Part shown: positions 23,373 through 32,327 of the stretch, piece after piece
Layout of the letters: every line of letters begins with the position of its first letter
How positions within the stretch are numbered: the first letter of the stretch is position 1
DNA from: Phycicoccus endophyticus
GTDB taxonomy: Bacteria; Actinomycetota; Actinomycetes; Actinomycetales; Dermatophilaceae
DNA: 64,000 nucleotides
Assembly (NCBI RefSeq): GCF_011326735.1
Contig: NZ_JAANCN010000012.1
Coordinates: 1 to 64,000, forward strand
Reading direction: 5' to 3'
Made by a program: the position numbers and the translations under genes
Notes under the pieces: generated by a model
What the model saw: only the letters and a program-made list of their open reading frames with translations
Told to the model about the DNA's origin: nothing
The model's database searches: none

Positions 23373-24414
23373 CGTCCGGCAGCTCCTCCTCGTCGTCGTC
23401 GTCGACGACGAGCGCCGGGGGCGGGGTCGGGCGGGTCCGCACCGCGACGGGAGCGAGCGACGTGCGCCGGTAGTCGTCCTCGGCCTCGGCCGCGTGCACC
23501 GCGTCGTCGAGTCGCCGCAGCTGGGTCGAGAGCACCTCCACCGCGGGGACGTCCTTGCGGCCCAGGGCGTCCATGAGCCGGGCCAGCAGCGCGAGCTCGC
23601 TGCCGAGCCGGGCACGGACGAGCAGGTTGGGGTCCGGGCGCTCCACCCGCACGTGCGCATAGGCCTCGAGGACGGTCTCCACCGCGTCGGGGGAGGCCTC
23701 CGCGACGAGGGCGGCGAAGTCGTCGGCCGGGTCGGCCACCTTGGCGTCCTCCCACCCGGTCATCGCCTTGACCCGGCCGCTCGCGGAGTCGCGCTCGTCG
23801 CCGAACACGGCGAGGACCTCCTCACCGGTGAGGTCGCCGTGGGTCGGGGTCGCGGCGAACCGCCACAGCGCGACGTCCTCCAGGGCGCCCTCCCACCGGG
23901 TGAGCAGCGCGGTCGGCACCCGGCCGGTCTCCGCCGCCCGGTCGAGCTCGGCGAGCCGGCGGGTGCGGTAGGCGTCGGCGTCGTAGGTCGGCAGGCCGGC
24001 CTCCTCGAAGAGGGCCGGGTCGAGGTTGTGGACGGCGCCGAGGGCCCGGCCGAGCTCGGCGGCGAGCCCCGGGCCGGCGGGCAGCGACGCGAGCTCGAGC
24101 GGGTGCCCCGGCAGGTAGGGGTAGACGGCGGCCCGCCCGCAGCCCTCGACCGCGACGAACCCCTTGGGTGCCGGGACCGCGAAGGGCAGCCGCCTCGCGA
24201 GGAGGGCCAGGAGGGCGACGCTGCGGTCCATCTCGGCGCCGGCCATCTCGGTGCGCGGCGCCCGGACCACCCAGCGGCGGTGCTCGTCGTCCTCGACGAA
24301 CGCGATGTCGAAGGACTGCCCCGGCAGGCTGGGCGGCGCCTCCACGCTCACCGGGTCCAGGCCAGGGACGGCCGCGCTGGCCAGGGCGGCGAGGAAGGAG
24401 GGGCTGCGGTCCAC
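23344..24414 (-). CDS. Aminoglycoside-phosphotransferase-fold protein, probable pseudokinase
   Basis: A 356-residue APH/ChoK-fold protein with the N-lobe strands around FDIAFVEDDEHRRWVVRAPR and the catalytic-loop region THGDLTGEEVLAVF. Two catalytic positions are off: the Asn five residues after the catalytic Asp is Glu, and the metal-binding Asp of the usual IDWxDA motif is Gly (MTGWEDAKVADPADDF). The last ~60 residues are a Pro/Asp/Glu-rich tail (VVDDDDEEELPDV). GTG 24414 sits 6 nt after a TACCGT -10 on this strand (leaderless). The gene is divergent from nudC and convergent onto adnB. It may bind nucleotide or act as a regulator; true kinase activity is doubtful. Confidence 0.72.
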   Translation of the reverse strand: MDRSPSFLAALASAAVPGLDPVSVEAPPSLPGQSFDIAFVEDDEHRRWVVRAPRTEMAGAEMDRSVALLALLARRLPFAVPAPKGFVAVEGCGRAAVYPYLPGHPLELASLPAGPGLAAELGRALGAVHNLDPALFEEAGLPTYDADAYRTRRLAELDRAAETGRVPTALLTRWEGALEDVALWRFAATPTHGDLTGEEVLAVFGDERDSASGRVKAMTGWEDAKVADPADDFAALVAEASPDAVETVLEAYAHVRVERPDPNLLVRARLGSELALLARLMDALGRKDVPAVEVLSTQLRRLDDAVHAAEAEDDYRRTSLAPVAVRTRPTPPPALVVDDDDEEELPDVSEPRRGLG

Positions 24415-24420
24415 GCCCCC

Positions 24421-24448
24421 ACGGTAGGCGCTCGGGGCGGCCTAGGCT
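24421..24448. promoter_or_regulatory. Divergent leaderless promoters for the phosphotransferase-like gene and nudC
   Basis: ACGGTA at 24421-24426 reads TACCGT on the minus strand, 6 nt before GTG 24414. TAGGCT at 24443-24448 lies 7 nt before GTG 24456 of nudC. The two -10 hexamers are 16 bp apart in a 41-bp intergenic gap, so the two genes probably compete for or share polymerase. Confidence 0.6.
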
Positions 24449-24455
24449 GGGAGCC

Positions 24456-25391
24456 GTGGCCCGAGCCGACCATTCTCTTGCCCCGGTCGCCCTGACCCGG
24501 CGCCCCCTCGACCGACACGGTGAGCTGCGCGGCGACCCCGCCCTCCTCACCGACCGGCTCGCCGACCCCGCGACCCGGGTTCTCCACCTGCGGGGCGACA
24601 CCGCGCCGGTGACCGAGGGGCCCGAGGGGACGACACGGGTGCGCCTGCGGGCGCCGACGGCGACCGACGCCGACCATCTCGTGGTCTACCTCGGTGAGGC
24701 CGACGGGACCCACTACCTCGGCGTCGTCGAGGACCTGCCCGAGGGCGCCGAGCCCGCACCCGAGGAGCGCACCCTGCGCCAGGTCGGTGCCAGCCTCGAC
24801 GACGTCGGCGCGGCCCTGTTCGTCACGACCCTCGCCCTGGCCAACTGGCACCGCACGCACCGGTTCTGCCCGCGGTGCGGGGGGCGGACGGTGCCCGTGC
24901 TCGCCGGCTGGGTCCGCCGCTGCCCGGCCGACGGCAGCGACCACTACCCACGCACCGACGTCGCGGTCATCATGGCCGTCGTCGACGACGACGACCGCCT
25001 GCTCCTGGCCCGCGGTCGCGGGTTCCGCAGCGGTGGGATGTCGGTGCTCGCCGGGTTCGTCGAGCCGGGGGAGACGCTCGCGGCGGCCGTGGTGCGCGAG
25101 GTGGGGGAGGAGGTCGGGGTGGAGGTCGAGGAGGTGACCTACCTCGGCGACCAGCCCTGGCCGTTCCCGTCCTCGCTCATGGTGGGCTTCCGTGCCCGGG
25201 CACGCTCGACGGCGCTGCGCCTGCAGGAGGACGAGATCGCGGCGGCACGGTGGTTCACCCGGGACGAGCTGGCGGCGGCGGTCGCCGACGGCTCGCTCGT
25301 CATACCGGGCCGGGTCTCCATCGCCCGCCGGCTGCTCGAGCACTGGTACGGCGGGCGGCTGCAGGCCCCGGACGTCTCGACGATGCGCTGA
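24456..25391 (+). CDS. nudC: NAD+ diphosphatase NudC
   Basis: A 311-residue NUDIX enzyme that hydrolyses NAD(H) to NMN and AMP and removes NAD caps from RNA. It has the N-terminal NudC domain; a zinc ribbon starting FCPRCGG and RRCPADGSDHYPR, in which only three Cys are seen so the fourth ligand must differ; the Nudix box GFVEPGETLAAAVVREVGEE; and the NudC-specific PWPFPSSLM following it. Relatives usually have Ser-Gln before PWPFP; here it is Asp-Gln. The start GTG is given by a -10 TAGGCT 7 nt upstream (leaderless). Neighbours adnB and mrx1 match the mycobacterial order, but no potassium-channel gene lies between adnB and nudC. Confidence 0.92.
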   Translation: MARADHSLAPVALTRRPLDRHGELRGDPALLTDRLADPATRVLHLRGDTAPVTEGPEGTTRVRLRAPTATDADHLVVYLGEADGTHYLGVVEDLPEGAEPAPEERTLRQVGASLDDVGAALFVTTLALANWHRTHRFCPRCGGRTVPVLAGWVRRCPADGSDHYPRTDVAVIMAVVDDDDRLLLARGRGFRSGGMSVLAGFVEPGETLAAAVVREVGEEVGVEVEEVTYLGDQPWPFPSSLMVGFRARARSTALRLQEDEIAAARWFTRDELAAAVADGSLVIPGRVSIARRLLEHWYGGRLQAPDVSTMR

Positions 25392-25398
25392 GCGCCGC

Positions 25399-25659
25399 TC
25401 AGCCCAGCCGCTCGCGCACCTCGGCGAGCGAGGGGTTGGTGGCGTGCGTGCCGTCGGGGAAGAGGACGGTGGGAACCGTGCGGTCGCCGCGGTTGGCGAG
25501 CACGACGAAGTCCGCGCCGTCGGGCCGGCGGTCGATGTCGACCTCGGTGAACGGGATGCCGGCGCGCTCCAGGCCCGACCTGAGCCGGGCGCAGAACCCG
25601 CACCACGAGGTGGAGAACATCGTCACCGAACCGGCCGGGGGTGGGGTGGGGTCGCTCAT
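25399..25659 (-). CDS. mrx1: Mycoredoxin (glutaredoxin-like, CGFC)
   Basis: An 86-residue thioredoxin-fold oxidoreductase that reduces mixed disulfides formed with mycothiol. The active site is TSWCGFCARL (Cys20, Cys23), followed by the conserved TVPTVLFPDG cis-proline loop (~61-70) and C-terminal NPSLAEVRERLG. CGFC replaces the more common CGYC of mycobacterial Mrx1. ATG 25659 is used; longer frames are antisense to uvrD2. The upstream sequence fits a SigR-type promoter. It lies between nudC and uvrD2, convergent with nudC (7-bp gap). The cell presumably makes mycothiol, consistent with the sigR-rsrA pair at 55.6 kb. Confidence 0.9.
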   Translation of the reverse strand: MSDPTPPPAGSVTMFSTSWCGFCARLRSGLERAGIPFTEVDIDRRPDGADFVVLANRGDRTVPTVLFPDGTHATNPSLAEVRERLG

Positions 25660-25668
25660 ACCGGGACC

Positions 25669-25694
25669 AACAGCGCGTGGGCGCCCGGCCTTCC
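25669..25694 (-). promoter_or_regulatory. SigR/SigH-type promoter for mycoredoxin
   Basis: On the minus strand GGAAG (25694-25690), an exact 18-nt spacer and GTT (25671-25669) match the actinobacterial SigR/SigH consensus GGAAT/C-N18-GTT, with one -35 deviation. The ATG begins 9 nt after GTT, so the transcript would have almost no leader. Mycoredoxin belongs to the thiol-stress regulon in other actinobacteria (recalled), which makes the match credible. Confidence 0.6.
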
Positions 25695-25744
25695 CACCCG
25701 GGCGGGCGAGCCGTCGTCGGGGTCTCGACCTAGGATCGGGGGCG

Positions 25745-27862
25745 ATGTCGACCCTCCCCGTCCACCCCGGCGCCGACGACGTCCTCGGAGCGCTCGACCC
25801 CGAGCAGCGCGAGGTGGCCGCCCACCCGCTCGGCCCGATGTGCGTGCTCGCCGGCGCCGGCACCGGCAAGACCCGGGCGATCACCCACCGGGTCGCCTAC
25901 GGGGTGCTCTCGGGGGCCTACCAGCCCCAGCGGGTGCTCGCCGTCACGTTCACCGCCCGGGCTGCGGGAGAGATGCGCACCCGGCTGCGGGACCTGGGTG
26001 TCGGCGGGGTGCAGGCCCGCACCTTCCACGCCGCCGCCCTGCGCCAGCTGCACTACTTCTGGCCCCAGGCCATCGGGGGTCCGGCGCCGGAGGTCATGCC
26101 GCACAAGGCCGGTGCCGTCGCCGAGGCCGGAGGCCGGCTGCGGCTGCGGCTGGACTCGGCCGCGGTGCGCGACCTCGCTGCCGAGATCGAGTGGGCCAAG
26201 GTCTCGATGCTCACCGCCGACGGCTACCCGGCGGCCGTCGCCCGGGCGCGCCGCGAGCCACCGGCCGGCCTCGACGCGACGGCGATGGCCCGCCTGCTCG
26301 CGACGTACGAGGAGGTCAAGGGGGACCGCGGCGTCATCGACTTCGAGGACGTCCTGCTCCTCATGGCCGGCATCCTCGGCGAGCACGAGCAGGTGGCGCG
26401 GGCGGTCCGGGCGCAGTACCGGCACTTCGTCGTCGACGAGTACCAGGACGTCAACCGGCTCCAGCAGACCCTGCTCGAGCTCTGGCTCGGCGAGCGCGAG
26501 GACGTCTGCGTCGTCGGTGACCCCGCCCAGACGATCTACTCCTTCACCGGGGCCTCTCCGGAGCACCTGCTCGGCTTCCGGGCCCGCCACCCCGCGGCCC
26601 GTGTCGTGGAGCTCGTCCGCAACTACCGCTCCAGCCCCCAGGTCGTCGGGCTGGCCAACCTCGTCCTGCGCAGCCCGGGAGGGGGGCGGCGCTCGGGCTC
26701 GGTCGAGCTGCGGGCCCAGCGCGCGGACGGCGTCGGCCCCGAGCTCCTCGTCGCCGACGACGACCCCGCCGAGGCCGACCAGGTGGCCGAGCGCATCCGT
26801 CGTCACCTCGACGACGGGCACCCCGCGGCCCAGGTCGCGGTGCTCTTCCGCACCAACGGCCAGAGCGAGCTGTTCGAGTCCGCCCTCGCCGAGCGCGGCA
26901 TCCCCTACCTCGTCCGGGGCGGGGAGCGCTTCTTCTCCCGCAAGGAGGTCCGCGACGCCCTCGTGCTGCTGCGCGGCGCGGCCCGCAGCGACGACGGTGA
27001 GGTCGCCCTGCCCGACCTCGTCCGCGACGTCCTCGTCGGGGCGGGGTGGACCCGCGAGCCCCCCGCCGCCGGGGGTGCCGCCCGCGAGCGCTGGGAGTCG
27101 CTGGCCGCCCTCGCCGGGCTCGCCGACGACCTGTCCGCCGCCGACACCACGGCCCGCCTCCCCGCGTTCGTCCGCGAGCTCGACGAGCGCGCGGCCGCCC
27201 AGCACGCTCCGACCGTGCAGGGGGTCACCCTCGCCTCGCTGCACGCCGCCAAGGGGCTGGAGTGGGACACCGTCTTCCTCGTCGGGTGCTCCGACGGGCT
27301 GCTGCCGATCACCATGGCCGACACGCCCGAGGAGGTCGAGGAGGAGCGTCGGCTGCTCTACGTCGGTGTGACCCGTGCCCGCGAGCGGCTCGTCCTCAGC
27401 TACGCGCGAGCCCGCACGCCGGGCGCCAAGGCGACCCGGCGACCCTCGCGCTTCCTCGACGGGACCGAGCCGGTGCTCGGCGCCGCGGCGCGCAGCCAGC
27501 CCCGGCGCCGCAGGGGCTCGACGCGCGAGCGCTCCGCCGCGCCCTCCGTGTGCCGGGTGTGCGGCGGAGGGCTCGCCACGGCCAAGGAGCGCACCATCGG
27601 CCGGTGCGCGGGCTGCCCGCCGACGATGGACGAGCAGCTCTTCGAGCAGCTGCGACAGTGGCGCCTCGAGACCGCCCGGGAGCTCGACGTCCCCGCGTAC
27701 GTCGTGTTCACCGACGCCACCCTGACCGCCATCGCCGAGCGCACCCCCGGCGACACGAGCGAGCTCTCTCGGATCGCCGGGGTCGGCCCGGCCAAGCTGG
27801 AGCGCTTCGGCGCGTCGGTCCTGGCCATTCTCGAGGAGTTCACCGAGGGGCAGAAGGCCTGA
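25745..27862 (+). CDS. uvrD2: UvrD2-type ATP-dependent DNA helicase with zinc tetracysteine and HRDC domains
   Basis: A 705-residue superfamily 1A 3'-5' helicase. Motor motifs: AGAGTGKTRAI (Lys42), TFTARAAGEMRTRL, DEYQDVNRL (D231), GDPAQTIYSFTGA, SLHAAKGLEWD and LYVGVTRAR. Downstream are the UvrD2-specific tetracysteine zinc site CRVCGG ... CAGC (C603, C606, C621, C624) and an HRDC domain (~630-705: LFEQLRQWRLETARELDVPA). In M. tuberculosis UvrD2 is essential and its tetracysteine motif matters for unwinding (recalled). ATG 25745 lies 8 nt after TAGGAT (leaderless). It is followed by the whiB7 leader on the same strand. Confidence 0.94.
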   Translation: MSTLPVHPGADDVLGALDPEQREVAAHPLGPMCVLAGAGTGKTRAITHRVAYGVLSGAYQPQRVLAVTFTARAAGEMRTRLRDLGVGGVQARTFHAAALRQLHYFWPQAIGGPAPEVMPHKAGAVAEAGGRLRLRLDSAAVRDLAAEIEWAKVSMLTADGYPAAVARARREPPAGLDATAMARLLATYEEVKGDRGVIDFEDVLLLMAGILGEHEQVARAVRAQYRHFVVDEYQDVNRLQQTLLELWLGEREDVCVVGDPAQTIYSFTGASPEHLLGFRARHPAARVVELVRNYRSSPQVVGLANLVLRSPGGGRRSGSVELRAQRADGVGPELLVADDDPAEADQVAERIRRHLDDGHPAAQVAVLFRTNGQSELFESALAERGIPYLVRGGERFFSRKEVRDALVLLRGAARSDDGEVALPDLVRDVLVGAGWTREPPAAGGAARERWESLAALAGLADDLSAADTTARLPAFVRELDERAAAQHAPTVQGVTLASLHAAKGLEWDTVFLVGCSDGLLPITMADTPEEVEEERRLLYVGVTRARERLVLSYARARTPGAKATRRPSRFLDGTEPVLGAAARSQPRRRRGSTRERSAAPSVCRVCGGGLATAKERTIGRCAGCPPTMDEQLFEQLRQWRLETARELDVPAYVVFTDATLTAIAERTPGDTSELSRIAGVGPAKLERFGASVLAILEEFTEGQKA

Positions 27863-27911
27863 GCGGCAGCGTTACTCGTCCACCCGGCCGCCCGCGCCCG
27901 CCCGCTCGCGC

Positions 27912-27951
27912 AATAAACCCGTTGCCGCCGCTCGCGCGGCGGTCCTACAGT
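27912..27951 (+). promoter_or_regulatory. whiB7 promoter with AT-rich WhiB7-binding element
   Basis: AATAAA (27912-27917) lies 4 bp upstream of -35 TTGCCG (27922-27927), then an 18-bp spacer and -10 TACAGT (27946-27951). An A/T patch immediately upstream of the -35 is the known WhiB7 target, where the C-terminal AT-hook contacts DNA while WhiB7 binds SigA, so the gene should be autoactivated. It stands out as the only A/T stretch in about 100 bp of G+C-rich sequence. Confidence 0.72.
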
Positions 27952-28020
27952 GGCGGGCAGCACCTCGCGTGCCCGCCCGGGGACACGAGCAGACCGAGAC
28001 CGCGAAGGAGGGTTGGAGAG

Positions 28021-28260
28021 ATGGAGAAGACGATGTCGACCACCGGTATGACGGCGACCGCCGCTGCCCGTGCCCAGGACGCCGTCTGGTTCGGCTCCAA
28101 CACCGCCCACGCGGTCGACCTGGGTCGCTTCCAGGGGCGCAGTGTCTCCGCCACCGGTCTCGGCGCGCGTGATCGCGTGGCCGCCGACCGCGCCGGCTTC
28201 GGCATCGCCGTCCCGACCACCGGATCCGTGGACCCCTGCCTCGACGGGCCACCTGTGTAG
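28021..28260 (+). CDS. whiB7 leader ORF (uORF, 79 aa)
   Basis: A 79-codon leader ORF with ribosome signals (AAGGAGGG at 28005-28012 and GGAGAG just before ATG), starting about 65 nt after the predicted whiB7 transcription start. The peptide has no recognisable domain (Thr/Ala-rich N-terminus, one WFGSN stretch). Its role is more likely as a translation sensor. Codons near its end contain GGATCCGTGG (28222-28231), fully able to pair with the 5' arm of the downstream terminator. Ribosome stalling by antibiotics would therefore favour read-through. A shorter start at ATG 28033 is possible. Another frame in this region (28070-28273) lacks a ribosome site. Confidence 0.7.
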   Translation: MEKTMSTTGMTATAAARAQDAVWFGSNTAHAVDLGRFQGRSVSATGLGARDRVAADRAGFGIAVPTTGSVDPCLDGPPV

Positions 28261-28313
28261 AGCCACAGGCTGACCCTCGAGGCCGCGGATCCCACCCGGG
28301 ATCCGCGGCCTTT
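28222..28313 (+). promoter_or_regulatory. whiB7 transcription attenuator: antiterminator / terminator switch
   Basis: Terminator: GGCCGCGGATCCC (28281-28293), loop ACCC, complementary arm 28298-28310, then TTTGT, a 13-bp stem (14 with the A28280-T28311 pair) and a short T-tract. Antiterminator: GGATCCGTGG (28222-28231) pairs at all 10 positions (one G-U) with CCGCGGATCC (28283-28292), the core of the terminator's 5' arm. A small hairpin CCTGTG/CACAGG (28252-28269) straddles the uORF stop codon. Free translation of the uORF should disrupt the antiterminator and end transcription before whiB7. Confidence 0.8.
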
Positions 28314-28481
28314 GTCATGCAGCCACCCCGGCACCCCACCACCCACCGAAGACGCGAGGACCAGATGAGCACCCACGAGCGCGACGAGCGCGACCACCCA
28401 CCCCATCCCGAGCGCGCCGGCCCGTGCGCGCGCACCGACCAGCGCCACACCCGGCGCGCCCACTGCGGAGGTGAGGCCCCG

Positions 28482-28772
28482 ATGCAGCTGACCGACCTGC
28501 TCGACCTGCACGAGAGGGCCGTCGCCGACGGCGGGGGCGTGCCGTGCCGCGAGCACGACGCCGAGCTGTGGTTCGCGGACACCCCCGAGGGCGTCGAGCT
28601 CGCCAAGGGCCTGTGCCGGGCCTGCCCGGTGCGTGCGACCTGCCTCGCCGGTGCCCTCGAGCGGCGAGAGCCCTGGGGCGTCTGGGGCGGCGAGCTGTTC
28701 GTCCAGGGAGCCACCGTCGCCCGCAAGCGGCCCCGGGGGCGCCCGCGCAAGGCGGACGTCGCGGCCGCCTGA
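28482..28772 (+). CDS. whiB7: WhiB7 transcriptional activator (Fe-S, AT-hook)
   Basis: A 96-residue WhiB-family protein controlling intrinsic antibiotic resistance. It coordinates a 4Fe-4S cluster with C22, C45, C48 and C54 (CRACPVRATC) and has the WhiB turn EPWGVWGGE (63-71), which contacts SigA region 4. The C-terminal AT-hook RGRPRK (85-90) distinguishes WhiB7 from other WhiB proteins. ATG 28482 is preferred for its ribosome site GGAGGTGAGG; an in-frame ATG at 28365 would add 39 hydrophilic residues. Expression should be governed by autoactivation and by the leader attenuator. Neighbours uvrD2 (upstream) and UbiB (downstream) match mycobacteria. Confidence 0.93.
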   Translation: MQLTDLLDLHERAVADGGGVPCREHDAELWFADTPEGVELAKGLCRACPVRATCLAGALERREPWGVWGGELFVQGATVARKRPRGRPRKADVAAA

Positions 28773-28811
28773 CCCCCCCACGTAGACCACGACCCACGAC
28801 AGGAGAACGCC

Positions 28812-28943
28812 ATGTACCACCGACGGATGCAGCAGGTCCGTCGCGTCGTGCACCGACGCCGTGTCCACGAGATGCAGCGCCGGGAGCGCGAGGCGGCGAA
28901 CCGGCAGGAGATGCAGTCGCTCGTCCACGCCGTCGTCCGGTGA
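28812..28943 (+). CDS. 43-residue basic small protein downstream of whiB7
   Basis: A short ORF with a strong ribosome site (AGGAGAA, spacing ~5) 39 bp after whiB7 and just before a perfect terminator hairpin, so it is probably the last cistron of the whiB7 transcript. The peptide is strongly cationic (about 12 Arg of 43) with regular Met/Gln/Arg/Glu spacing (VHEMQRREREAANRQEMQ), consistent with one amphipathic helix that could contact RNA, the ribosome or membrane. I do not recognise it. Context suggests a role in the antibiotic-stress response. Confidence 0.6.
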   Translation: MYHRRMQQVRRVVHRRRVHEMQRREREAANRQEMQSLVHAVVR

Positions 28944-28957
28944 GGCCGGCACCGACC

Positions 28958-28990
28958 CCGCTGCCCCCGGCGCCGTGCCGGGGGCAGCGG
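28958..28990 (+). terminator. Terminator of the whiB7 transcript
   Basis: A perfect 14-bp stem (CCGCTGCCCCCGGC and complement) with a 5-nt loop, 15 bp after the 43-codon ORF. No T-tract. The remaining sequence to about 29.1 kb holds no gene I can support. Confidence 0.7.
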
Positions 28991-29108
28991 CCGTCCACGG
29001 CAGCGGGCCGAGGACCGTGACCGCAGATGCGCGGCCGGTCGTGCCCGTGGTGCGAGAGCGTGACGTGTGGCGCGCCCTGGCCGGCTGCCTGCTGGCTACC
29101 CTGAGGAC

Positions 29109-29383
29109 ATGGCCGCACCCGATCTCCTCCCGCAGCGCGTCGCGCCGAGGCCGCCGGCGGCGGAGTGGGGCTGAGGGTGGCATCCGAGGCCGGAGCCGAG
29201 GGGCCGCCCGGCCCGGTCTGCGCGACGTGCGGTGCGAGGGCCTCCGGAGCCGAGGAGGCCGCCCTCGCGCGGCTGACGTGGACGCGCGGCAGCGAGGGGG
29301 GCCGGGAGGTCTGGACGTGCGGCGCGTGCAGCCGTCGCCACCTGCGCAGCATCGAGGGCAAGCTCGACTCCGCGTGGTGGTGA
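29109..29383 (+). CDS. Small zinc-ribbon-like protein, apparent 1-nt frameshift
   Basis: The C-terminal part (from GTG 29165 or 29177) has two CxxC pairs (PVCATCGARA and WTCGACSRRHLR) and ends EGKLDSAWW, so a ~90-residue zinc-ribbon protein is likely. A better start exists: ATG 29109 follows a -10-like TACCCT by 6 nt, but that frame ends after 21 codons (...PPAAEWG stop at 29174). One extra G in the GGGG run at 29167-29170 would join it smoothly to GLRVASEAG. Either the gene is frameshifted (or the sequence has a homopolymer error), or it starts at the internal GTG. Convergent with the UbiB gene. Function unknown. Confidence 0.55.
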
Positions 29384-29395
29384 GCCCGGGCGGGC

Positions 29396-30742
29396 TCAGC
29401 GTGCGGGCGGCAGCCGCGGCTCGTCGATGCCGGGCAGGTAGGCGCAGACCATCTCGCGCAGGGGCACCGTGCCGCCGACCTGGCTGAGCACCCCGATCCC
29501 GCCCAACCACACCCGGTGGATCAGGAGGTACTCCGGCGGCAGGTTGAGCTTGAGGCCGACGAGGAACTGTGGCCGCCGGGGGTCCTGGATCTGGGCTGCC
29601 GCTGCGCGCAGCCAGCCGCGGCTGAAGGTGAACTCCTCGTGGAGGACCGGCTCGACGAGCGGCGCGAGGTACTCGAGCAGCCCCTCCGGGTCGATGTCGA
29701 TGCCGGAGCGGATGAAGCCCTCGGTGCGCAGGCCCTGCTCGAGGGTGTCGGCGTCCCCGGCGAGGGCGGCCGTGAGCAGCCGGCCCATCGCCGGGGGCAG
29801 GCCGTCGGGCAGCCGGTTGACGGCGCCGAAGTCGAGCACCCCGAGGCGGCCGTCCGGGGTCACCCGGAAGTTGCCCGGGTGCGGGTCGGCGTGCAGGAGC
29901 CGGGCCCGGTTCGGGGCGCGCAGATGGAACTCGAGGTAGAGCGAGGCCGCCTCGTCCCGCTCCTGCGGGCTCCCGTCGGCGATGACCCGGGCCAGCGGGG
30001 TCCCCTCGACCCACTCGGTGACGAGCACCTGCGGCGACTCGACGAGGACGTCGGGGACAAGGACGTCCTCGTCGTCGCGGAAGGCCCGCGCGAAGTGACG
30101 CTGGTGGCGGGCCTCGAGGGAGTAGTCCAGCTCCTCGCGCATCCGGGCGCGCAGCTCGTCCATGATCGGCTTGATGTCGACGCCCGGCACCCACGAGCCC
30201 GCGACCCGGGCGACCCGGGAGATCTGGTTGAGGTCGGACAGCAGCGCCTTGCCCGCGCCCGGGTACTGGATCTTCACCGCGACCTCACGCCCGTCGCGCC
30301 ACACCGCCCGGTGGACCTGGCCGATCGACGCCGACGCCGCGGGGACGTCGTCGAACTCGACGAGCTTGGTGCTGGCCCAGCGCGGCCCGAGCTCCTCGGC
30401 GAGGATGGCGTGCACTCGGGCGGCACCCATCGGCGGGCCGGACTCCTGCAGCCGGGTCAGTGTCGCCCGGTAGGGGGCGACGACCTCCTCGGGCATCGCG
30501 GCCTCCATGACCGACAGCGCCTGGCCGAACTTCATCGCGCCGCCCTTGAGCTGGCCGAGGACGGAGAAGAGCTGCTCGGCCGTGCGGGCCTGCATCTCGG
30601 CGGCCACGGCCTCCGCGGGGCGCCCACCGACCCGCTTGCCGACGCCCAGGGCGACCCGCCCGGCGTGCCCGAGCGGCAGCCCGGCGAGCCGGGCGGCACG
30701 CGCGATCGAGGACCCCGGGATCTCGCGCTCTCGCTCGCTCAC
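29396..30742 (-). CDS. UbiB/ABC1/AarF-family atypical kinase
   Basis: A 448-residue UbiB-type protein-kinase-like ATPase. It has the family's inhibitory KxGQ motif (LKGGAMKFGQALS), Ala-rich nucleotide loop (PAASASIGQVHRA), VAVKIQYPG lysine, EELDYSLEA, catalytic HADPHPGNF and metal-binding VLDFGAVNRLP. UbiB proteins support quinone/isoprenoid lipid metabolism; this is the soluble actinobacterial branch (Rv3197-like), recently tied to antibiotic tolerance in mycobacteria (recalled, uncertain). GTG 30742 overlaps the upstream stop as GTGA, so translation is coupled to the E1-like protein. Being next to whiB7 is conserved. Confidence 0.92.
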   Translation of the reverse strand: MSEREREIPGSSIARAARLAGLPLGHAGRVALGVGKRVGGRPAEAVAAEMQARTAEQLFSVLGQLKGGAMKFGQALSVMEAAMPEEVVAPYRATLTRLQESGPPMGAARVHAILAEELGPRWASTKLVEFDDVPAASASIGQVHRAVWRDGREVAVKIQYPGAGKALLSDLNQISRVARVAGSWVPGVDIKPIMDELRARMREELDYSLEARHQRHFARAFRDDEDVLVPDVLVESPQVLVTEWVEGTPLARVIADGSPQERDEAASLYLEFHLRAPNRARLLHADPHPGNFRVTPDGRLGVLDFGAVNRLPDGLPPAMGRLLTAALAGDADTLEQGLRTEGFIRSGIDIDPEGLLEYLAPLVEPVLHEEFTFSRGWLRAAAAQIQDPRRPQFLVGLKLNLPPEYLLIHRVWLGGIGVLSQVGGTVPLREMVCAYLPGIDEPRLPPAR

Positions 30743-31284
30743 CCGGCCATTGTCGCCGACGTGCACCGACAACCGGGCCAGGAGGTCCACACCCGGTGCA
30801 CGACGTCCCCGCCGCCGGCGCCGAGCTCGGTCGAGATGCCGCCGAGGGCGAGGTCACCGGCGAGCACCGCGAGCGCCGTCACCGTGGCGACGGCGGCACC
30901 GAGCACAACGGCGGCCGTGGGCACCGGCCCGGGTCCGGGTGCCGGGACGCTGGCCCGCACGCAGGTGAGGCACGCCGTGCGTCCCGGGACGACCAGCGGG
31001 CCGACGACGAGGACCCCCCCGCGGCCGGTCACCGGCAGGAGGGGGACCCCACGGACCTGCCACGGCGCCCCGAGGGAGGGCGCGCGCAGCCACTCGGGCT
31101 CGAGGTCCTCGACGGCGAGCAGGACGAGTGCCGGTGCGGGCCCGCCCGCCGCGACGTCGAGCTCGGCCGCGTCCGCCGCGTGGGCTCCGGCCCGCACGGG
31201 CACCCGGCAGCGCCGCAGCTGGGCGGTGGTCTCCTCGGCCACCCGACCCCAGCCGTCGACGACGACCTGCCCGACCGCGTCCAT
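30739..31284 (-). CDS. E1-like / TOMM cyclodehydratase-related protein (181 aa)
   Basis: A 181-residue protein resembling the C-terminal part of ThiF-like proteins that assist azole-peptide (TOMM) cyclodehydratases. It has a Rossmann-like start (VVVDGWGRVAEETTAQL), then VVGPLVVPGRTACLTCVRA, and a terminal cysteine pair WTSWPGCRC corresponding to the usual HPxCxC. Those four cysteines likely bind a structural zinc. Full-length TOMM partner proteins are 300 residues or more and no precursor peptide or YcaO gene is nearby, so this looks like a repurposed actinobacterial housekeeping member (Rv3196-like by position). It is translationally coupled to the UbiB kinase, suggesting a common complex. 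Confidence 0.6.
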   Translation of the reverse strand: MDAVGQVVVDGWGRVAEETTAQLRRCRVPVRAGAHAADAAELDVAAGGPAPALVLLAVEDLEPEWLRAPSLGAPWQVRGVPLLPVTGRGGVLVVGPLVVPGRTACLTCVRASVPAPGPGPVPTAAVVLGAAVATVTALAVLAGDLALGGISTELGAGGGDVVHRVWTSWPGCRCTSATMAG

Positions 31285-31373
31285 CGACCACCCTCCCTGC
31301 GCGAGGCCCTTGCGGGCATCCTGCCGCGCGAGGCCGGCGGCCCGCTGGGCTCGTCCACAGGCCCCCGGAGACG

Positions 31374-31411
31374 CACGGGCGCCCCGGACCGCCGGGTCCG
31401 GGGCGCCCGTG
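31374..31411. terminator. Terminator between DUF5679 and the E1-like gene
   Basis: A perfect 17-bp stem (CACGGGCGCCCCGGACC and complement) with loop GCCG, starting 9 bp past the DUF5679 stop. It is the longest perfect inverted repeat in this part of the window and separates DUF5679 from the downstream E1-like/UbiB operon. Confidence 0.8.
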
Positions 31412-31420
31412 GCGTCGCGG

Positions 31421-31582
31421 TCAGGCCTTGCCGAGGATCCGGTTGAGGTTGGTGCCGCACACCGGGCACTGTCCCTTGGCCATCCGTCGGCCGTTGTCGG
31501 AGACGACGACCTTCCCCTCGGCCTCGCGCTTCTCCTTGCACTTCACGCAGTAGAACTCGCCCTTGTAGGTCTCGTCGGACAT
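31421..31582 (-). CDS. DUF5679 zinc-ribbon protein (53 aa)
   Basis: A 53-residue protein with two CxxC knuckles (FYCVKCKEKRE and GQCPVCGTNLNRIL) and a basic linker, an archetypal small zinc ribbon. DUF5679 is actinobacterial, short and highly conserved; no function is established, although its chemistry (Lys-rich, zinc ribbon) fits a ribosome- or RNA-associated protein. It has a good ribosome site (AAGGAGGACG) before ATG 31582. It lies upstream of the E1-like/UbiB pair but is separated from them by a strong hairpin, so it is probably expressed at a much higher level than they are. Confidence 0.85.
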   Translation of the reverse strand: MSDETYKGEFYCVKCKEKREAEGKVVVSDNGRRMAKGQCPVCGTNLNRILGKA

Positions 31583-31778
31583 CGACGTCCTCCTTGGTCA
31601 CCGGCGGGGGAGGCCCCGGCGGGTGGCGCCGTCCGCGGACGGCCTGGACCCGCTCACCCTAGCGACGGCGAGGCCCCTGCTCGCGGTGAGACGGGCTCAC
31701 CGGGCCGGGCCGGCGCAGGCGGGTGTCACCGCGCGTATCACCGGCCCCACCAGCCCCGGGAGTCGTATGGTCGTCCTC

Positions 31779-32327
31779 ATGGCCGGGCCCGAGGTGGAGG
31801 TCCGCCGCAGCAGGCGGCGGCGCCGCACCGTGAGCGCCTACCGCGACGGCGGACGCACCGTCGTGCTCATCCCGGCCTCCTTCTCGGCCGCGGAGGAGGC
31901 CACCTGGGTGGAGCGCATGCTCACCCGGCTGGCCCGCGGCGAGCGGCGCCGCCCGGTCGGCGACGAGGCGCTCGCGGCGCGGGCCTCCCGGCTCTCCGAG
32001 CGCTACCTCGGTGGGCATGCCCGGCCGACGAGCGTGCGCTGGGTCTCGACGATGGACAAGCGCTGGGCGTCCTGCACGCCGGCCGACGGCACCATCCGGG
32101 TCTCGGACCGCCTCCAGGACGTGCCGGCGCACGTCCTCGACTACGTCGTGCTCCACGAGCTCGCCCACCTGCTCGTCGCCGGTCACGGCCCGGCGTTCTG
32201 GCGCCTGCTGGCCTCCTACCCGCGCCTCGAGCGCGCCCGGGGCTTCCTCGACGGCCTGGCCCACGCCTCCGGCATGCCCGCGTCAGAGGAGCCCGAGGGC
32301 GACGCGGGCGGCGGCGACGAGGGGTGA
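31779..32327 (+). CDS. YgjP/SprT-like zinc metallopeptidase
   Basis: A 182-residue YgjP-like (PF01863) metallopeptidase. The zinc site is VVLHELAHLLVAGHGPAFW (HELAH with the third His downstream), preceded by the family block WVSTMDKRWASCTPADGTIRVS. Substrates are unknown for this family; the fold resembles SprT. The start is taken at ATG 31779 because TATGGT (31766-31771) lies 7 nt upstream (leaderless); an ATG 12 bp further up overlaps that hexamer. The last 45 bp overlap the convergent NUDIX gene, and the final ~20 residues are Glu/Gly-rich and dispensable-looking. Confidence 0.85.
   Translation: MAGPEVEVRRSRRRRRTVSAYRDGGRTVVLIPASFSAAEEATWVERMLTRLARGERRRPVGDEALAARASRLSERYLGGHARPTSVRWVSTMDKRWASCTPADGTIRVSDRLQDVPAHVLDYVVLHELAHLLVAGHGPAFWRLLASYPRLERARGFLDGLAHASGMPASEEPEGDAGGGDEG

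Follow-up and report, generated by a model that had tools for sequence, protein, structure and literature searches.

The whiB7 leader of Phycicoccus endophyticus is very probably a ribosome-controlled transcription attenuator whose antiterminator strand coevolves with the terminator arm

In Actinobacteria, intrinsic resistance to drugs that target the ribosome is set by WhiB7. Lee, Lee and Roe reportedly described in 2022 a transcription attenuator of whiB7/wblC, mediated by an upstream open reading frame (uORF), in Streptomyces and Mycobacterium. The accessible text of one paper presents the mycobacterial whiB7 leader as attenuation with a uORF and a hairpin (PMC4128351), and the available passages of three others state that translation of the whiB7/wblC uORF leads to the terminator, and antibiotics or starvation to the antiterminator (PMC11550727, PMC9618640, PMC13236596). 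Stalling inside the whiB7 uORF is stated as not yet tested in the available text of PMC12121999. Here we analyzed the whiB7 leader in a stretch of 64,000 nucleotides (the window; positions 1 to 64,000 of contig NZ_JAANCN010000012.1) from the 3.18-Mb genome of P. endophyticus. On the plus strand, a UvrD-type helicase gene is followed first by a sequence resembling a promoter and a uORF, next by a hairpin that ends in a short T-tract, and then by whiB7 and a small Arg-rich ORF. This locus is very probably a ribosome-controlled transcription attenuator of whiB7.

The window shares with the whiB7/wblC attenuators the gene controlled, a uORF with a Shine-Dalgarno (SD) sequence, a hairpin of putative Rho-independent type, and an antiterminator predicted to form when uORF translation fails; in Streptomyces loci the letters of the terminator are almost identical to those of the window. 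It differs from most of these leaders in having lost a mismatch in the terminator stem, with the uORF strand changed to match. Its 79-codon uORF is longer than those of mycobacterium-like leaders (42-74 codons in eight; the genome label was deduced from the leaders) and carries an internal motif. The vmlR attenuator of Bacillus subtilis also has an antibiotic-sensing uORF and an antiterminator competing with a terminator. As far as the accessible part of its description goes, vmlR is tuned by an RNA-polymerase pause in the leader (NusG, TTNTTT), and its three-codon uORF, anti-antiterminator hairpin and T-rich NusG motif set it apart from the window (PMC9226507). Leader-peptide attenuators of the trp/ilv kind share the choice between exclusive hairpins by ribosome position; in the passages available (M. 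tuberculosis ilvB1, PMC13236596) their regulatory codons sense particular amino acids, whereas the window controls a general regulator of translation stress. The window uORF encodes 14 Ala among 79 residues, with no Ala run longer than three, and may sense Ala starvation.

An earlier note, made from the letters of this DNA, had proposed a stalled-ribosome switch consisting of a 79-codon uORF with a ribosome site, a 13-bp terminator with a T-tract at 28281-28313, and a 10-bp pairing of the uORF with the terminator 5′ arm. The uORF was confirmed at 28021-28260 (ATG at 28021, TAG at 28258-28260), preceded by the SD sequence AAGGAGGG at 28005-28012, and is a candidate for translation. The terminator stem also stood. 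Hairpin and short T-tract occupy 28279-28313; the 13 bp are formed by GGCCGCGGATCCC (28281-28293) and GGGATCCGCGGCC (28298-28310) around a loop of 4, with two weak outer pairs added. The fold of 28262-28316 had a z-score of -5.87, and 0 of 200 shuffles equalled it. A Rho-independent terminator after the uORF is predicted, with a strongly supported and conserved stem. The complementarity of 28222-28231 to 28283-28292 held at 10 of 10 positions, counting nine Watson-Crick pairs and one G-U pair. As an antiterminator, however, the pairing described was too small: it is present only as the outer layer of a larger structure. RNA 28205-28296, which lacks the terminator 3′ arm, folded into three nested helices spanning 28222-28292 (z = -4.29; 0 of 200 shuffles). 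The outer helix, seen by folding and comparison, pairs 28222-28230 with 28284-28292; the middle helix, seen by folding, pairs 28238-28244 with 28277-28283; and the inner core is a hairpin at 28246-28276, whose loop holds the uORF stop codon. A small hairpin noticed earlier at the uORF stop is this core and not a separate element, and its stretch by itself (28240-28296) had a z-score of -1.60, with 13 of 200 shuffles as good.

In the mechanism that we propose, transcription would start immediately past 27951. When the uORF is freely translated, a ribosome on the final codons and the stop codon would cover or melt the antiterminator strands. The nascent 5′ arm 28281-28293 would then pair with its own 3′ arm, and polymerase would stop near 28313. 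If ribosomes instead fail to start, or are delayed or halted no later than about codon 60, both 28222-28244 and the stop-codon hairpin would be free to capture the emerging 5′ arm through the outer and middle helices, and polymerase would read into whiB7. WhiB7 would then presumably activate its own promoter. Ribosome occupancy, termination, induction by drugs and autoregulation are steps that we infer. With a ribosome footprint masked near codon 60, the antiterminator remained intact (-43.6 kcal/mol); near codon 70 it was lost. A ribosome on the stop codon changed it from -47.9 to -28.0 kcal/mol, and the longer RNA then formed the terminator. In the ribosome-free nascent window leader, the arm paired with the uORF strand at a mean probability of 0.91.

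To place the leader among its relatives, homologues of WhiB7 were collected within the order (177 of 396 genomes; E ≤ 1e-15), the family (137 of 149 genomes; E ≤ 1e-25) and the class (318 of 394 genomes; E ≤ 1e-12), and 80 named loci were added. The closest named relatives, among the best 80 of 533 in one collection scan, were Phycicoccus and Ornithinibacter records. We call near those loci that came from the searches of the family and the order or were close named hits; all counts below are of sequences, not of evolutionary events. Of 155 leaders with distinct upstream sequence, 147 bear a hairpin within three edits of GGCCGCGG[AT][AT]CCC...GGG[AT]TCCGCGGCC, and the eight that do not (L029, L041, L050, L052, L058, L065, L082 and L098) were left out. 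A looser pattern added 27 of 30 further loci, giving a set of 174 leaders. At least one hairpin, that of L186, is misplaced, both in this set and in the set of 98 used below. The terminators of Streptomyces, Kitasatospora, Nocardioides and near loci are nearly letter-identical to that of the window, which makes the leader a homologue of the whiB7/wblC leaders already described; its place within these known attenuators, whose circuit is itself known, is well supported. A uORF that has an SD sequence (which the calling rule demands) and stops shortly before the hairpin was found in 135 of the 147 leaders, with 52 to 135 codons overall and 57 to 113 codons in the 84 near ones. Thus the statement that sequences and uORF of this leader are apparently different from those described did not hold, since the terminator is shared and uORF homologues occur across near relatives. 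A covariance-model search of 84 sources gave 42 matches at E ≤ 0.1, and one of 50 sources gave 39 at E ≤ 0.5. The element is nearly a palindrome, and for this reason at least seven of the 42 lay on the opposite strand; no pair counts were taken from the alignments, which were too ragged.

Comparison of these leaders argues for the pairing of the uORF with the terminator 5′ arm. At least seven arm bases paired with upstream uORF sequence in 136 of the 147 leaders. On average 9.3 arm bases were paired natively and 6.4 with shuffled uORF ends; shuffling weakened the fold by a mean z of -1.80 (below -2 in 61 leaders, below -1 in 104). In a swap test, uORF ends and arms were compared among 98 dissimilar leaders (6-mer overlap <0.30, at which shared ancestry remains). 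Native whole folds were better by 4.24 kcal/mol beyond the additive expectation (z = -15.5; 0 of 5000 permutations), and the outer helix alone was better by 1.29 kcal/mol (z = -8.0; 0 of 5000). In the plain row comparison, the native whole fold was better than its row median in 84 of 98 leaders.

Individual base changes point the same way. The tenth base of the 5′ arm, T28290 in the window, can pair with both A28224 of the uORF and the 3′ arm. Across the 174 leaders this base is A, C, T or G by lineage, mostly A with a U partner in the uORF. It had a uORF partner in the fold of 132 leaders, and relative to the 3′ arm it was mismatched in 125 and paired in 49. Nine mycobacterium-like leaders have the arm GGAC, with C at this position, and GTCC in the uORF, while the 3′ arm still has A. 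T with a uORF A occurs in 12 of 15 leaders of the window's clade, the exceptions being L008, where the base is unpaired, L125, which has T with G, and L126, which keeps A with U; it is also found separately in Nocardioides allogilvus (L056) and Sphaerisporangium rufum (L046). In 13 near leaders the arm reads CGCGAAC instead of CGCGGAAC, and all 13 uORF ends hold GTTCGC, GCTCGC or ATTCGC; GTTCGC itself is present in 7 of these and in 0 of 71 other near leaders. The 3′ arm GGGTCCGCGGCC is retained in 10 of the 13. These findings indicate that the 5′ arm tracks its own 3′ arm less closely than it tracks the uORF strand, and that uORF strand and 5′ arm coevolve. By folding and comparison together, the uORF 3′ end and the terminator 5′ arm form an antiterminator that is mutually exclusive with the terminator.

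The uORF also contains a motif, CAGGGGCGCAGTGTCTCC, at 28132-28149 (codons 38-43). The region (Q)G(T/R)x(V/L)(S/P) was recognized in 110 of 135 uORFs, a descriptive figure because the score was trained on the same uORFs; shuffled peptides pass it in 1.6% of cases. Its mean position is about codon 35 in 73 near uORFs and about codon 28 in 37 others. The distance of the motif from the uORF start had a smaller standard deviation than its distance to the arm in both groups (14.5 vs 28.4 nt in the near, 12.6 vs 38.9 nt in the other leaders). Codon usage was compared among uORFs with 3-mer overlap <0.15, at which shared ancestry again remains. The sixth motif codon ends in T in 45 of 53 dissimilar uORFs (7.5 expected for those amino acids), with GGT, AGT, ACT, GCT, CGT and GTT all in use, and the seventh ends in G in 44 of 53 (17.8 expected). 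Gly is encoded by GGG in 31 of 39 near uORFs (4.1 expected) and by GGC in 34 of 37 others. On this comparison, the motif is fixed at the nucleotide level, beyond codon choice. The pattern CAGGGGMNCNNTSTSTCC had one exact occurrence in the window's genome, at 28132-28149, and three more places with one mismatch. When 19 genomes including this one were searched, five had one copy each, placed in the whiB7 leader in four of the five (G865 being the fifth), and 14 had none, members of the same genus included. The motif was not seen when the mycobacterium-like leaders, whose uORFs are shorter, were inspected by eye; a similar peptide is present in L176, L183, L188 and L194 from other members of the class.

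The elemental RNA-polymerase pause consensus comprises G-10, Y-1 and G+1, according to the available text of PMC12288461. Several of the most constant motif bases coincide with G-11, G-10, T-3, Y-1 and G+1, while others, such as two C at +3 and +4, lie outside the consensus. G-11 and T-3 also belong to the pause consensus. The combination of G-10, Y-1 and G+1 occurs in 95 of the 110 motif-bearing uORFs, vs 2.9% at the same codon register elsewhere in uORFs, and G+1 occurs in 100 of 110 (67 of 73 near, 33 of 37 other); this pause reading was made post hoc, with the motif already known. In the window, whose register was taken from relatives, G28136 (-10) and T28145 (-1) agree with the consensus and C28146 (+1) does not, so this uORF is one of the 15 that fail. 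Two structural explanations were tried and rejected. A hairpin-stabilized pause was dropped: folds upstream of the motif were slightly worse than shuffles (-9.38 vs -9.98 kcal/mol in 73 near leaders, -7.43 vs -8.03 in 37 others). A local GGAC:GTCC hairpin within the motif was dropped because its would-be pairing positions vary independently (in the near group, the second base of codon 5 is C in 43 of 73 and the third base of codon 7 is G in 67 of 73; in the other group, 34 of 37 have C as the last base of codon 4). Folding of full leaders gave no steady pairing partner for the motif, the largest shares being 0.18 within the motif and 0.18 with the downstream uORF. An RNA-polymerase pause at the motif, giving the first ribosome time to catch up, would suit an attenuator; alternatively, the motif may be a factor-binding site or act through the peptide.

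A second recurrent feature is a single mismatch in the terminator stem. Among the 174 leaders, the stem contains precisely one internal mismatch in 143, is free of mismatches in 20, and contains at least two in 11, at least one of these 11 being a misplaced hairpin. At the tenth position the mismatches are A-A (94), A-G (15) and C-A (12); A-C occurs at the eighth position (11) and A-A at the ninth (9), where two genomes of one family have the 3′ arm changed to GGGAACC. The kinds and places of the mismatch differ, which suggests that the mismatch itself has been retained, although much of the A-A class is explained by shared descent. It could act as a brake: a mismatch in mid-stem would hinder the 3′ arm from displacing the uORF strand, and an antiterminator once formed would survive. 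Perfect stems are found in 14 of 15 leaders of the window's clade, which has lost the mismatch and whose uORF strand has changed accordingly. Should the mismatch indeed act as a brake, the switch of this clade would lean more to termination. A joint scheme, in which a uORF signal holds RNA polymerase about 125 nt into the uORF until the first ribosome arrives and the kept mismatch stops the terminator from displacing the antiterminator, is offered only tentatively and is rather doubtful as a whole. No title among those listed from the whiB7/wblC literature searched, which did not include the primary description by Lee, Lee and Roe, pointed to the mismatch or the internal motif; novelty of the two features is not established.

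Several results weigh against attenuation as described here. The T-tract TTTGTCAT, counted by the earlier note as part of the terminator, is weak and short, and for this reason a generic terminator scan that needs 5 T in 8 found none in 27850-28500. In the model, a ribosome on the stop codon still permits the outer and middle helices (at the -28.0 kcal/mol given above); because it only weakens the pairing, sterics or timing must complete repression. Full-length RNA prefers the terminator fold, and the antiterminator must therefore win kinetically. In full leaders the mean probability of pairing between arm and uORF was only 0.51 (84 near) and 0.54 (51 other), exceeding 0.5 in 83 of 135. The native outer helix was better than its row median in only 30 of 98 leaders because many arms are identical. 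It contains a U-U mismatch in L008 and a C-A mismatch in L122, and the base at 28290 had no uORF partner in the fold of 42 of 174 leaders. Covariation in an alignment within the window's genus alone gave no signal (0.032 vs 0.032 shuffled) and was uninformative. Of the stalled-ribosome switch as first put forward, the pairing of strand and arm is well supported by comparison and fits the described whiB7/wblC system, with the reservations on its size and on the T-tract already given.

Three other explanations of the locus were considered. The weak T-tract would suit a scheme in which the translated uORF keeps Rho off, or in which translation is what is controlled, and the hairpin serves only for processing or pausing. 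Such control has the wrong sign, as whiB7 should rise on translation failure, when Rho would terminate. It also has to face the coevolution of the 5′ arm with the uORF strand and a terminator stem conserved across orders, and we consider it quite unlikely. A somewhat better case, though still an unlikely one, can be made for a uORF product that acts as a functional peptide or as an arrest peptide with a fixed stalling site, with QG(T/R)x(V/L)S and a C-terminal Pro-Pro-Val kept for the peptide. The residue motif of the 110 uORFs counts in its favor, as does Pro-Pro-Val before the stop codon, which ends the window uORF and 61 of 84 near uORFs but just 4 of the 51 others. Against this stand the third codon positions, which are fixed beyond the need of the amino acids (the T-ending sixth codon covers six of them), the location of the C-terminal codons within the stop-codon hairpin, and the wide range of uORF lengths among near leaders.

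Chance complementarity in a G+C-rich leader, with a switch that the organism does not use, is the remaining explanation. GC-rich sequence does pair readily: in the window, shuffled uORF ends paired with 8.5 arm bases on average, against 12 natively. Nevertheless, the native fold had a z-score of -3.45, and only 1 of 100 shuffles was as good. Together with the swap test and the matched changes in separate lineages, this makes chance a most improbable explanation. Attenuation by the ribosome on the uORF is the reading that we prefer.

The promoter-like sequence lies at 27912-27951 and consists of AATAAA (27912-27917), a -35-like TTGCCG (27922-27927) 4 nt downstream, an 18-nt spacer, and a -10-like TACAGT (27946-27951). 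The AT element beside the -35 is located as had been claimed. The layout of an A/T run, GTTG, spacer and TANNNT, a pattern defined post hoc on sequence already inspected, was found upstream of 82 of 135 related uORFs and in 0.4% of shuffles. A generic sigma-70 scan found no promoter. A WhiB7-activated promoter has an AT element near the -35, and the layout here is that of a putative WhiB7-dependent promoter. Within the spacer (27928-27945) lies an inverted repeat whose length is 7 bp in the window, 5-6 bp in a number of relatives and only 2-4 bp in many (among 70 of 82 rows listed).

The gene at 28482-28772 is a real whiB7. It encodes 96 amino acids with a WhiB domain (PF02467, E = 6.4e-15) and a C-terminal AT hook (PF02178, E = 0.0045; 17.1 bits, slightly below the cut-off of 17.4), and its product had no match in NCBIfam. 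An SD sequence (GGAGG) is located at 28467-28471. Five genes of genome G000 encode WhiB domains; whiB7 is the weakest match, and the other four are L001-L004. The whiB7 frame is open upstream back to 28317, and a longer WhiB7 from the ATG at 28365 is possible; the start at 28482 agrees better with relatives. When the 147 leaders were searched by rule for a second uORF after the terminator, 17 candidates were obtained, and the window is not one of them. In L009, L012, L014, L015, L017, L021, L040 and L130 this second uORF has 41-59 codons and a stop overlapping the whiB7 start, which suggests translational coupling.

Upstream of the leader, the UvrD-type helicase gene with an HRDC domain ends at 27862; the neighbor of whiB7 in M. 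tuberculosis is also a UvrD-type helicase gene. Downstream, the range of the earlier note to 28943 takes in both whiB7 and the small Arg-rich ORF (28812-28943, plus strand; 43 amino acids), which has an SD-like sequence and is possibly co-transcribed. Of the loci examined, 40 of 51 near ones and 10 of 68 others have an ORF of 30-60 amino acids with an SD-like sequence 3′ of whiB7. Sequences related to the 43-amino-acid ORF occur in the window's clade, and it had no match in Pfam or NCBIfam. Rfam gave no family at the gathering score in 24000-32000 and no match in nine relatives. The sole sub-threshold match in that range, to Mu-gpT-DE RNA at 28767-28814 between whiB7 and the small ORF (27.1 bits, cut-off 49), is probably due to chance.

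The comparison bears on how the whiB7 leader senses many different drugs. It identifies the pairing partners base by base, with the matched changes of evolution included. The terminator mismatch and the internal uORF motif can be addressed by single or synonymous changes. If the joint scheme of polymerase waiting and a stem brake is true, the window's clade has lost the mismatch and the window has lost the best form of the motif, and the switch would have been re-set towards termination.

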